From the NCBI GenBank assembly GCA_945949735.1, contig CAMFFO010000002.1, forward strand, positions 27,851-91,850: DNA of 64,000 nucleotides, given 5' to 3'. Below the pieces are notes generated by a model. The model worked only from the letters and a program-made list of their open reading frames with translations. It searched no databases and was not told the origin of the DNA. Positions within the stretch are counted from its first letter, which is position 1. The number at the start of each line of letters is the position of its first letter. Source of the stretch: an uncultured Clostridia bacterium (GTDB lineage: Bacteria > Bacillota > Clostridia > Oscillospirales > Oscillospiraceae). Shown here in pieces: positions 58,944 to 62,568 of the stretch. The translations under genes and the position numbers were made by a program.

Positions 58944-59020
58944 GCGGCGGTAGCTCAGTTGGATAGAGTGACTGACTACGAATCAGTAGGTCGGGGGTTC
59001 GAGTCCCTTCCGGCGTACCA
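58944..59020 (+). tRNA. tRNA-Arg(ACG), CCA encoded, with a G4-G69 acceptor mismatch
   Basis: GCGGCGG TA GCTC...ACTGACTACGAATCAGT...GGTTCGAGTCC...CCGGCGTACCA; anticodon ACG. Confidence 0.88.
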
Positions 59021-59026
59021 AGAGTT

Positions 59027-59072
59027 AATAATCCGAACCTTATCTCAGCAGGAGAAGGGTTCGGATTATTTT
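59027..59072 (+). terminator. tRNA-Arg terminator
   Basis: AATAATCCGAACCT...AGGGTTCGGATTATTTT. Confidence 0.8.
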
Positions 59073-59078
59073 GCACTT

Positions 59079-59165
59079 GGGACTCGAACCATAAAATGCA
59101 AATGTCCGGTGGACATTTGCTCGGCGGCGGCTCGACGACGCCGACACCATAATGTTGCGAGTCCC
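59079..59165. repeat. tRNA-T-arm-like hairpin element, copy 1
   Basis: GGGACTCG...CGAGTCCC termini; internal GCAAATGTCC-GGT-GGACATTTGC hairpin and GC-rich CGGCG...CGCCG hairpin. Confidence 0.65.
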
Positions 59166-59178
59166 TTTCGCCGTACCA
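59157..59178 (+). pseudogene. second tRNA 3'-end fragment (T-arm plus acceptor and CCA)
   Basis: GCGAGTCCCTTTCGCCGTACCA versus tRNA-Arg CGAGTCCCTTCCGGCGTACCA (2 mismatches over 21 nt). Confidence 0.7.
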
Positions 59179-59213
59179 AAAACGGGTTATCCCATCCGGG
59201 ATGACCCGTTTTT
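59178..59213 (+). terminator. terminator behind the second tRNA 3' fragment
   Basis: AAAAACGGGTTATCCCATCCGGGATGACCCGTTTTT. Confidence 0.78.
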
Positions 59214-59225
59214 GATTTGACGGGT

Positions 59226-59304
59226 GGGACTCGAAAGGGCGGCCCGGCCGCAGGCCGGGTAAAAACAGTCCGGTGGACTGTTTTTAGATAAGTGGGAGAG
59301 TCCC
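59226..59304. repeat. tRNA-T-arm-like hairpin element, copy 2
   Basis: GGGACTCG...GAGTCCC termini; CCCGGCC-GCA-GGCCGGG and AAAAACAGTCC-GGT-GGACTGTTTTT hairpins. Confidence 0.6.
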
Positions 59305-59423
59305 TCCGGTTTCAGACGCATCCCGCAGGGATGTGGATGAAACCGGAACAGGTTCGATGCGGAATAGCGTTGGTATGGTGCACCGTTCCCAAAAGTCTTA
59401 TAAGAACACTTGTACCAGATTGA

Positions 59424-59475
59424 AAAAGCACCTAAGTCTCACCATTCCGGTGAGACTTAGGTGCTTTTTCTTTTT
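59424..59475. terminator. strong intrinsic terminator with no obvious upstream gene
   Basis: AAAAAGCACCTAAGTCTCAC-CATTCCG-GTGAGACTTAGGTGCTTTTTCTTTTT. Confidence 0.75.
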
Positions 59476-59613
59476 GAATGATGGAAAATTGTTGCGATAA
59501 GCACAATTCTTTGCCGATGCAAACGCATAATAACGAATATAAAAATCGGGAAAATGATGTCAAAAATGATGTCAGGTTTTCGGGATAATCACATTCCTTT
59601 TTGGCGTATGCCT

Positions 59614-59859
59614 TTAGCTTATCTGCGGATTCGTGTGTTTCTTTTCACGGAGGTTGGTATAGATTGCCATGGTGGTGTTTATGTCCGCGTGGCCGAGGAG
59701 TTTCTTTGCGGTATGCACATCAACGTCCGCCTCAAACAGGATGGTGGCGCAGCCGTGCCGTAGAGAATGGGCTGTCAGGTTTGGTTTGAAGTTGTGGACG
59801 ACGTAGGTCTTTCCTTGTTTGCTGATCTTTGTTTCCTGGGTATCCTCGACGAAGCCCAT
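59614..59859 (-). pseudogene. tyrosine recombinase/phage integrase C-terminal fragment
   Basis: LTAHSLRHGCATILFEADVDVHTAKKLLGHADINTTMAIYTNL (catalytic HxxR, H and Y); no N-terminal half. Confidence 0.85.
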
Positions 59860-59878
59860 ATCCTTAACTCAGCAAACC

Positions 59879-60062
59879 GACAAATTGGTGTTTGTCGAGA
59901 TGCCACCGTAGGGGCGGCTATTAGCCGCCCGCTTTTGTTTCGTCAACGAAAGTGCTTCCGTTTATCGGAAACGCTCAGAAACCTGAACGTTTCCGGGCGG
60001 CTAATAGCCGCCCCTACGGTGGCAATGCAGCGTGTTTGGAAATCTACAAACACCAATTTGTC
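59879..60062. repeat. palindromic element family A', copy 3
   Basis: GACAAATTGGTGTTTGTCG...GTAGGGGCGGCTATTAGCCGCCC...GGGCGGCTAATAGCCGCCCCTAC...CAAACACCAATTTGTC. Confidence 0.88.
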
Positions 60063-60219
60063 AGGCTGCTGACTTAGGCCAGTATGCTATTTTGAAATTA
60101 TTGCGATTATTTTTTACCGTCTAATATTTCGAGAATTGCAGTATTACTGAACGCTATATTCATAACGTCCCGAAGGGACTCCTTAACTGTCCACTGTCCT
60201 GCGTCTATGAGAGCGGAAA

Positions 60220-62568
60220 GTGGGCAAATCTTTACGACTGGGGCGAAAAAAGGCGCCCAACGGATACTATGATCCGGCGGACGGGAGCATCCATATTGAC
60301 CTGAACGCAGGGCAGTCCGGCAAGGGCACCATGCTGTTCACCGTGGCCCATGAGCTGGCCCATTTTATCAAGGACTGGTCAAGCGTCAAATATATGGCTC
60401 TTGCGGATGCGCTGGTGAAGCAGTACCAGAAGCAGGGCGTAACTGTTTCGGAGCTGGTGGACAATCAGATCGAAAAGGCAAAGCTGAACGGGCGGGAAAT
60501 GAGCAGACTGGAAGCGTTTGACGAGATGGTGGCGGATTCCATGGAGAGTATGCTCACCGATGAAAACGCGGCGGCTTTCCTGGAACGGCTTGCCCAGCGG
60601 GACAGGGGGCTTAAAGAGAAGATTGTTTCCTGGCTGAAGGAGCTGGCCGCGAAGCTGAAAAACGCGCTGAGCGCCTACAAGGACGTGAAGCCAGATTCCC
60701 AGGAGGGGAAGATGGTGGCCCAGATGGAGGATTTCCGAAAGGAGATCATGGGCATCTATACCTCCGCGCTGGTGGATGCCGGGGAGAATTTCAGGGAGAA
60801 TGGAGGTACTTTAACATCAGATGGTGATTATCTCTATTCGGAAAGAGTTACGGATAAGGATACGCTTGATTTCCTTAACAGTCAGGAAACTGTAACCACA
60901 TACAAAACCATGCAGATCGTTGACGGGAAGCTGTACCCTCCTATGGCATCCAGAATTGGAGGGAAGCATGAGGACTACAGCGTTCTTGGAGAATGGGAAC
61001 AGGCTACAGAACACCCCGAACTGATAAAGGAAAACGGTAAATTCAAACTCGATAAGGGAAAAGGACAGGGCAGCATTGAAGCCGCGTACAATCCTTATAT
61101 GCATTCGTCGAATCTGGTTATCAACGATCAGTTTTCAGGAGCATATGCTCGGGACAATCTTGTTACTGTAGAATGTGAAGTACCTGTCAGTGAACTTACC
61201 AGCGGATACAGAGCACAGTACGCGAAGGATTCTGTCGGTTGGCACGCATGGCACACAGGAACCGTAGCTGGCGCGATTCGGAAAGCTACCGGGGTGGAAA
61301 GACAGGTTTTGCTTTCCAGGTGGATTAAGCCTGTCCGAATCCTATCGGATTCCGAAGTTGCGGCTATGTATAAGGATTTGCTTGATGGAACAGATATCTC
61401 TGTTCCTGACAATGTGGTAACTCCTTCGCTCCTTTCCGAATTGAAAAAGGCTGGTGTGAAAATCAATGAAAGCGGAAGAGTAAAGCATTCATACCGGGAA
61501 GGTGGAGAGAAGTATTCTGATCGATACATTTCTTCAGATGTTGACACAAATGTGCTTTCCCTTGTCGAGCGCGTAAAATCTGGTCACTATTCCGATAATG
61601 AAAAGGTATTTTTTAGCACTGTCCCTGATAAAATAGCATCGACGATTGAGAAAATTACAGGTATTGATGTTAAAGGTTTTCGTGTCGCTATAGAAGCTCG
61701 GCAAATATACCACATTCTAAATGACCATGGCCCAAAAGGCACTTCAGACCATTCGATGGCCGATCCAAATGATATTGCTCGGATAAGATACACTTTAGAT
61801 GACCCTGACGATATTCGTGAATCAGGTACAACAAAGGCATACACCCATTTCAAAAATGGAAAAAACAGGCTTGCGCCAACTGTTCTTTATGAAAAAAGCA
61901 TTGGAGATAAGTCCTATTATGTTGTGCAAGCGGTACCGGATACGAAAGCCAAAATACTTTATATTGTGTCAGCATTTATTGGGAAAAGCGGATACAAAAA
62001 GGAAGTCCAGCAGCTCATCAATGCCAATGGCTCTGATGCAACGGCTAAAACCGGTTCTGCTGAAACTTCCAATTACAGTATACGCGACCCCAATTCTGTT
62101 GTCAAGCAGAAATTCTCCGACCGTGACCCGACAGCGGAGGCTACGCGGGCGGCGTTGGAGAAGGAGAATGGGAAACTGCGGGAGGATGTTTCCAGGCTCA
62201 GGGAGCTGCTGAGGCTGCAGGGGAAGGTGACCGGCGGGACGGTGATGAAGCCCTCCAGCGTGGAGGCGGCGGCAAGATGGCTGAACAAGTACGCCGGGGC
62301 AAAGGCGGATGTGAAGGAGCTCAGCCGGATTCTGACGGAGTTTTACCAGTTCATCGCCACTGACAAGGACTACAGTTGGGAGGATGTCCACGATCGGGCT
62401 ATGGTCATTGCCAAATACCTTAAGGACAATGTACAGATCAAGCCCCAGATGAGCGACTACGCCAGGGACGTGCTGCGGGATATCCGGGGGATCAAGATCA
62501 CCCTGGACGAGAGCCAGCGGGCCAAGGCAGAATACCAATACGGATGTGTTGATGCAATCAAGAGTTGA
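60220..62568 (+). CDS. fragment of a mobile-element polyvalent protein: zincin metalloprotease, unknown middle module, BECR-type (PBECR3-like) nuclease, coiled coil
   Basis: FTVAHELAHFIKDW (HExxH); IEARQIYHILNDHGPKGTSDHSMADPNDIARIRYTLDDPDDI...GDKSYYVVQAVPDTKAKILYIVSAFIG. Starts mid-domain with GTG and ends abruptly near a family B fragment. Confidence 0.6.
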   Translation: MGKSLRLGRKKAPNGYYDPADGSIHIDLNAGQSGKGTMLFTVAHELAHFIKDWSSVKYMALADALVKQYQKQGVTVSELVDNQIEKAKLNGREMSRLEAFDEMVADSMESMLTDENAAAFLERLAQRDRGLKEKIVSWLKELAAKLKNALSAYKDVKPDSQEGKMVAQMEDFRKEIMGIYTSALVDAGENFRENGGTLTSDGDYLYSERVTDKDTLDFLNSQETVTTYKTMQIVDGKLYPPMASRIGGKHEDYSVLGEWEQATEHPELIKENGKFKLDKGKGQGSIEAAYNPYMHSSNLVINDQFSGAYARDNLVTVECEVPVSELTSGYRAQYAKDSVGWHAWHTGTVAGAIRKATGVERQVLLSRWIKPVRILSDSEVAAMYKDLLDGTDISVPDNVVTPSLLSELKKAGVKINESGRVKHSYREGGEKYSDRYISSDVDTNVLSLVERVKSGHYSDNEKVFFSTVPDKIASTIEKITGIDVKGFRVAIEARQIYHILNDHGPKGTSDHSMADPNDIARIRYTLDDPDDIRESGTTKAYTHFKNGKNRLAPTVLYEKSIGDKSYYVVQAVPDTKAKILYIVSAFIGKSGYKKEVQQLINANGSDATAKTGSAETSNYSIRDPNSVVKQKFSDRDPTAEATRAALEKENGKLREDVSRLRELLRLQGKVTGGTVMKPSSVEAAARWLNKYAGAKADVKELSRILTEFYQFIATDKDYSWEDVHDRAMVIAKYLKDNVQIKPQMSDYARDVLRDIRGIKITLDESQRAKAEYQYGCVDAIKS

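Follow-up and report, generated by a model that had tools for sequence, protein, structure and literature searches.

A 158-bp non-coding cassette at a tRNA-Arg gene of a Clostridia bacterium and a candidate family of small structured elements behind tRNA genes

The analyzed DNA (the window) is a 64,000-nt stretch from a contig of an uncultured Clostridia bacterium. It contains a tRNA-Arg(ACG) gene that is followed by two different versions of its own 3′ end. As judged from the comparison with related genomes, a 158-bp non-coding cassette from the tRNA-Arg locus of another species has probably entered a tRNA-Arg gene that had a TCGCCGT end. The cassette would have brought the 3′ strand CCGGCGT, which led to a G4-G69 mismatch in the acceptor stem, and the old end would have been stranded downstream. 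The cassette belongs to a large family of small, structured elements that appear to move from one tRNA gene to another.

The tRNA-Arg(ACG) gene and its two 3′ ends

The tRNA-Arg(ACG) gene, which encodes its CCA, was placed at 58944–59020 on the forward strand by ARAGORN and Rfam and by direct reading. Its acceptor strands are GCGGCGG (58944–58950) and CCGGCGT (59010–59016), with a G-G mismatch between position 4 (G58947) and position 69 (G59013). This mismatch and a second 3′ end that removes it had been noticed in an initial reading of the DNA (the sequence-only reading), and both were confirmed. The second 3′ end had been placed at 59157–59178; it is indeed present, but it starts at 59158.

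Both ends are blocks that reach from C56 to A76 on the forward strand. The proximal block (59000–59020) is of the CCGGCGT type and is interpreted as having been brought in. The distal block (59158–59178; CGAGTCCCTTTCGCCGTACCA) is of the TCGCCGT type, it leaves no mismatch with the 5′ strand of the acceptor, and it is regarded as ancestral. The repeat spacing is 158 bp, and the two 21-nt blocks differ solely at positions 66 and 69. Even when 3 mismatches were allowed, a search for the 21-mer retrieved these two sites alone in the 64 kb and none in 100 shuffled sequences. The insert is bounded by these two direct copies, and 70 similar pairs were found. The first 8 nt of the distal block are complementary to 59079–59086. 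As had been claimed, the distal copy has a terminator of its own, consisting of a hairpin and a T run at 59182–59214.

The cassette extends from the proximal C56 to the base preceding the distal C56 (59000–59157, forward strand), as delimited by its identity with genome G030 and by the boundaries of 70 direct copies. It is composed of the incoming C56-A76 block, a terminator, an inverted copy of a part of the T-arm, and a hairpin core, with 79 bp of hairpins in total. The terminator hairpin T1 (59027–59070, forward strand) has a 13-bp stem and is common to G009, G020, G030, and G114; it is 95% identical in G030 and absent from the tRNA-Arg(CCG) locus of the window's own genome. The inverted copy of T54-C63 (GGGACTCGAA) is located at 59079–59088 on the reverse strand and is followed by core hairpin 1 with a conserved CCGGTGG apex (59098–59120, forward strand) and by core hairpin 2 (59121–59144, forward strand). 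At the cassette edges, the core ends with ...ATAATGTTG, and the sequence from C56 onward is CGAGTCCC. Between 59021 and 59157, only hairpins were found, and neither an integrase nor any other gene, so that the insert has no integrase of its own. The inverted T-arm copies in this region (59079–59088 and 59226–59235) and the hairpins between them had been overlooked in the sequence-only reading.

Comparison with the tRNA-Arg loci of relatives

In the sister species G005, the 5′ strand of the tRNA-Arg(ACG) gene is GCGGCGG as in the window, its 3′ strand is TCGCCGT, and both the mismatch and the cassette are absent. Among the 90 tRNA-Arg(ACG) genes of the genus, the window's gene is the only one with an acceptor mismatch. 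Also, a second 3′ end is present in 70 arrays, and only in the window's array is the pairing of the proximal end worse than that of the distal end. Because of these three results, the comparison indicates that the tRNA-Arg(ACG) gene originally ended with the distal copy, and the earlier proposal to this effect is borne out by the G005 locus. Relatives that share the proximal end together with the mismatch would have spoken against it, and none of the 89 other genes is mismatched. As a 3′ strand, TCGCCGT is rare (2 of 90 genes); CCGGCGT together with the matching 5′ strand GCGCCGG is found in 35 of 90. CCGGCGT is also present in the tRNA-Arg(CCG) gene of the window's own genome (G000), and the respective block has exactly the sequence of the window's proximal block.

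It had further been proposed that the proximal end arrived with an element, and this was corroborated by the comparison with G030. The identity is 94.4% over the 158 nt of the cassette, which includes block, terminator, and core, and 65.7% in the DNA upstream of the tRNA. Upstream of the tRNA, G005 is the closest relative (83% identity), and yet it lacks the 158-bp stretch. In G036, the second terminator of the window (T2) is located directly 3′ of the tRNA-Arg(ACG) gene. The tRNA-Arg(CCG) genes of G000 and G005 are also directly followed by a T2-type terminator and lack this cassette, and in G009 and G114, the cassette is located between the tRNA-Arg(CCG) gene and the terminator. By this comparison, the former two loci are empty sites and the latter two are occupied sites. 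The large difference in identity between the cassette and the upstream DNA, together with the empty and occupied sites, is the reason why block, terminator, and core look like one transferred unit.

Five relatives have integrated elements of a different kind within the anticodon loop of their tRNA-Arg(ACG) genes, namely G005:C2 (L041), G030:C84 (L036), G066:C100 (L042), G096:C174 (L043), and G114:C9 (L033). They are 4.7–7 kb long and have long direct repeats, a replaced 3′ half, and a second tRNA 3′ half at the far end. Integrase-like sequence adjoins the tRNA in 4 of the 5 cases.

Cassettes behind other tRNA genes

The cassettes form a family with a common anatomy, with relatives in many genomes, with a covarying core, and with exact boundaries. 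BLAST searches with the element revealed copies 3′ of Leu, Asp, Gln, Cys, Pro, Gly, Val, Ser, and Arg tRNAs in relatives and also at one tmRNA-like end. At most copies found in this way, the inverted and direct pieces match the adjacent tRNA. The copies are located 40–60 bp 3′ of tRNAs with more than 20 anticodon types in the genus, and copies also occur in other families of the order. The layout is a constant hairpin core between an inverted copy of T54-C63 and a direct copy of C56-A76 of the respective tRNA. The boundaries were quantified with 70 direct copies representing 21 anticodon types. The identity per position was 0.34 at position 55, 0.96 at position 56, and 0.41 at position 77; the search threshold of 18 matches in 21 positions determines the identity within the block, and the drop beyond its ends does not depend on this threshold. 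The direct copy spans exactly C56 to A76, and the inverted copy spans T54 to C63. A cassette was also observed 3′ of a probable tmRNA 3′ end (GGTTCGATTCCCCTCGGCTCCACCA; L136, G031:C111), and there again the inverted and direct flanks match.

When hairpins were detected blind to their flanks, they were found behind 89 of 252 tRNA loci. An inverted T-arm of the own type (at least 9 of 10 positions) was present at 80 of these 89 loci, and a direct block of the own type (at least 15 of 17 positions) at 58. On average, the 89 loci matched their own tRNA at 9.56 of 10 positions in the inverted and at 14.67 of 17 positions in the direct piece, compared to 7.98 and 9.68 for other tRNA types. At the tRNA-Arg(CCG) gene of the window's own genome, the inverted copy extends through the acceptor, and the resulting 38-nt arms are 95% complementary, with the terminator at the center.

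Most of the genomes are fragmented. Many loci were picked by their similarity to the element, and therefore, fractions that are free of this choice come from the surveyed genomes only. In two near-complete genomes, all tRNA genes were surveyed, and full units followed 10 of the 41 genes in one genome and 10 of the 39 genes in the other. Full or partial units were found behind 18 of 41 and 21 of 39 genes, respectively, and one or two of the partial units may be neighboring tRNA genes rather than remnants. In a genome of the sister genus, no cassette was found at 34 tRNA genes, and in a genome of another family, 2 full and 5 partial units were found among 32 tRNA genes, with not every tRNA gene being read in either genome. 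Overall, the element is present in 69 of 101 genomes, with a patchy distribution between species. Matches in further families and one match in another order of the class are mostly located 3′ of tRNAs and follow the same flank rule. A strict pattern search throughout the class yielded matches in 3 of 388 genomes, and both matches outside the window are located directly 3′ of a tRNA. The flanks are degraded at many loci, and the proximal and distal blocks are identical in most arrays.

Some loci deviate from the common layout. A tRNA-Arg array in G072:C6 (L047) contains a 1.1-kb unit with a gene for an HTH (XRE-type) regulator between two near-identical cassettes. In three species (L081, L086, L100), the T1-type terminator of tRNA-Arg(ACG) is directly followed by a small gene without a hairpin core; the small genes have a common start, about ...ISCxFNI...

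Structure of the hairpin core

The covariation score of 35 aligned cores was 0.349, compared to 0.143 ± 0.008 after shuffling and at most 0.095 when the cores were slid. Most of the covariation is located in hairpins 1, 2, and 3. The outer stem consists of tRNA-derived pieces, and its covariation is not independent evidence. Folding of the window's core as single-stranded DNA predicted an outer stem with 2–3 hairpins (z = −5.7). The CCGGTGG apex of hairpin 1 is a well-conserved motif. For searches with covariance models, R1 captured one hairpin only and was replaced by R2. In Rfam 15, no family matches the core above the gathering score, which is reached by the tRNAs alone.

Movement between tRNA genes

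As far as can be judged from the comparisons, the cassette has been transferred between species, and it has spread between tRNA types within genomes. The mean similarity of cores was 0.688 for different tRNAs of the same genome, 0.621 for the same tRNA in different genomes, and 0.627 for unrelated pairs. The observed grouping by genome was reached in none of 2000 label permutations, with much of the within-genome signal coming from one genome, G077. Because the cores group by genome and not by tRNA, they appear to spread between tRNA genes within genomes and to gain the flanks of the new host tRNA.

A possible mechanism would start with entry between T55 and C56, within the T-loop that is common to all tRNAs. 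The recipient's own C56-A76 would normally be present on both sides and the inverted T-arm copy inside, which could generate a folded site. This site might fold as a single strand, and a recombinase could act on it in trans. Each insertion would place a new 3′ end and a terminator in front and would displace the old end downstream. The flank could be duplicated from the target, or the incoming unit could bring a flank that is corrected afterwards. The proximal block of the window is foreign, and this favors the second route at least once, with gene conversion from tRNA-Arg(CCG) as a serious rival (see below). The evidence that a cassette can bring its own 3′ end comes mainly from the window locus because the blocks are identical in most arrays, as would be expected if insertion duplicates the target end. 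The window itself stems from a fragmented genome with a completeness of 82%.

Two candidate mobilizers were rejected. The integron integrase was ruled out because its model TIGR02249 gave no hit above the cut-off in 12 genomes. The Y1 transposase (PF01797) was found in 4 of 20 genomes and does not track the cassettes; it was absent from the cassette-bearing genomes G077, G001, G117, and G107.

We tentatively propose that the cassettes might form a gene-free mobile class, not previously described, that enters tRNA genes, and possibly tmRNA genes, at T55/C56 via a folded T-arm. One system could then use almost any tRNA as an attachment site and stack new 3′ ends and terminators before the old ones, and the window would represent an incoming cassette that swapped in a mismatched 3′ end. 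We regard this general proposal as possible rather than probable. Searches of a library of open-access papers did not yield any account of such tRNA-flanked repeats; most subscription journals are outside of this scope, and thus, this is weak evidence of absence that does not establish novelty. If the proposal is true, there would be a mobile family with ends that match the host tRNA each time, and one short structured core would serve many tRNA genes. Duplications of tRNA 3′ ends would not need to be scars of phages or ICEs, the stacked terminators behind tRNA genes would be explained, and a one-step swap of a tRNA acceptor stem would be demonstrated. With the conserved CCGGTGG hairpin and the exact boundary at T55/C56, a search for the enzyme becomes directly testable.

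Alternative explanations

Repeats from the T-loop to the 3′ end of tRNA genes are a known class of attachment sites, which counts for the explanation that the insert is the attR scar of an ordinary integrase-bearing element that has since been largely lost, with an integrase remnant at 59614 as a witness. Elements with tyrosine integrases do occupy tRNA-Arg(ACG) in the five relatives named above. However, the tRNA repeat of these elements begins at the anticodon loop and not at C56, and the remnant is only about 38–39% identical to their integrases. The two ends are separated by a structured repeat of 137 bp that is found behind more than 20 tRNA types, and not a decayed gene-bearing element, and the occurrence of the cassette in many relatives had already weakened the scar explanation. 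We therefore consider it very unlikely. The sequence-only reading had taken the remnant as the mark of the source element, and this part was not supported, because the remnant lies outside the cassette and has this low identity to the integrases of elements at the same tRNA, and because those elements recombine in the anticodon loop and not in the T-loop. It is similarly improbable that the cassettes are non-mobile, conserved structures that regulate the expression or the processing of tRNAs and were duplicated together with tRNA ends. The strong covariation and the fixed position and orientation 3′ of tRNAs would fit a regulator, but the cores sit past the terminator, they are patchily distributed between species (69 of 101 genomes), the copies group by genome, and the flanks are degraded at many loci.

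The mismatch could also have been generated within the genome, if the insertion duplicated the TCGCCGT end of the host and a subsequent gene conversion replaced the proximal copy with the CCGGCGT of the tRNA-Arg(CCG) gene. This is in agreement with the identity of the tRNA-Arg(CCG) block and the proximal block, with the equality of the proximal and distal blocks in most other arrays, and with the spread of cores between tRNA types with host-matched flanks. Nevertheless, we regard it as unlikely, since two events would be needed and the conversion tract would have to be confined to the 3′ part of the tRNA. The latter is the case because the adjoining T1 is absent from the own tRNA-Arg(CCG) locus but 95% identical in G030, where it also occurs with CCGGCGT. 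A chimera of the metagenome assembly, in which the conserved tRNA would have served as the joint to reads from another species, has an even lower probability and is hardly to be expected. The body of the tRNA differs very little between species, and the source assembly has 289 contigs and 4.6% contamination, both of which would facilitate such an artifact. However, the rare distal TCGCCGT (2 of 90) matches the 5′ strand across the cassette, and thus, the flanks look like one genome and a double chimera would be required.

Comparison with known systems

Under the preferred reading of a mobile cassette, several known systems are similar in part. Like tRNA-targeted integrative elements (phages, ICEs, and IMEs with tyrosine integrases and a crossover of the T-loop class), the cassette has a direct repeat from the T-loop to CCA, the tRNA is intact upstream, and the old 3′ end is displaced downstream. 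In contrast to these elements, it has no gene, is about 100–160 bp long, is found at many different tRNAs, contains an internal inverted T-arm copy, and forms multi-copy tandem arrays. Integron gene cassettes and their attC sites share the head-to-tail arrangement of units, with the newest unit apparently at the first position. There may be a further similarity to attC in the unit boundary, which coincides with the end of a box that is predicted to pair with an inverted counterpart as part of a folded structure with covariation. The array with the 1.1-kb HTH gene unit (L047, G072) is also reminiscent of an integron array. Unlike in integrons, no IntI was found above the cut-off, the boundary is C56 of the tRNA and not G/TTRRRY, the usual content is a tRNA end and a terminator, there are 2–3 hairpins instead of the one of attC, and there is no attC consensus.

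Like MITEs and REP/REPIN sequences, the cassettes are short, non-coding, multi-copy, palindromic, and dispersed within genomes. They differ from MITEs, with their constant terminal inverted repeats and short target-site duplication, because the terminal sequences vary with the host tRNA, and from both MITEs and REP sequences because nearly all observed sites are at tRNA 3′ ends or have a tRNA 3′ piece. They also differ from REP/REPIN and IS200/IS605-derived repeats, as a Y1/RAYT-type transposase does not track them. The accessible part of a report on MRSC-65-2, a mobile or repeat candidate from an ncRNA screen, describes an abundant, covarying structured repeat that is thought to be selfish and possibly acts as DNA (PMC11109978). 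By this description, MRSC-65-2 has a single long stem, compared to the several hairpins of the cassette, and the part in question mentions no association with tRNAs (PMC11109978).

The region downstream of the distal end

The distal end is followed by the older terminator T2 (59182–59214, forward strand). Behind it lies an older second element (59226–59304, forward strand), which comprises the inverted T-arm copy at 59226–59235 and another core with a CCGGTGG hairpin. The same arrangement is found 3′ of tRNA-Arg(CCG) in G114 (L038). The stretch behind the second element (59305–59476) ends with ...AAAAGTCTTATAAGAACACTTGTACCA, and next comes a terminator hairpin with 22 bp and no mismatch. In L113, L126, and L137, cassettes are preceded by similar joints immediately upstream of a CCA, and this type of joint may be what a third kind of insertion left behind.

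An integrase remnant had been reported at 59614–59859, and its existence was verified (PF00589, E = 1.4e-13; reverse strand). It is the truncated C-terminus of a tyrosine integrase, covers the last third of the PF00589 domain only, and lies 436 bp past the distal end. It was judged to be outside the cassette and to stem from an event other than the cassette insertion, and it was rejected as the cassette source. The remnant abuts a MITE-like palindrome (59866–60090) with GGGCGGCTATTAGCCGCCC inside and CAAATTGGTGTTTG-type ends, which probably truncates it. The end motif of this palindrome recurs near tRNA-Arg(CCG) in L110 and L111. Further downstream, an ORF of 782 amino acids (60220–62568) has a PBECR3 domain (phage Barnase-EndoU-ColicinE5/D-RelE-like nuclease; E = 2.2e-12), and its N-terminus is of the HELAHF type and metallopeptidase-like.
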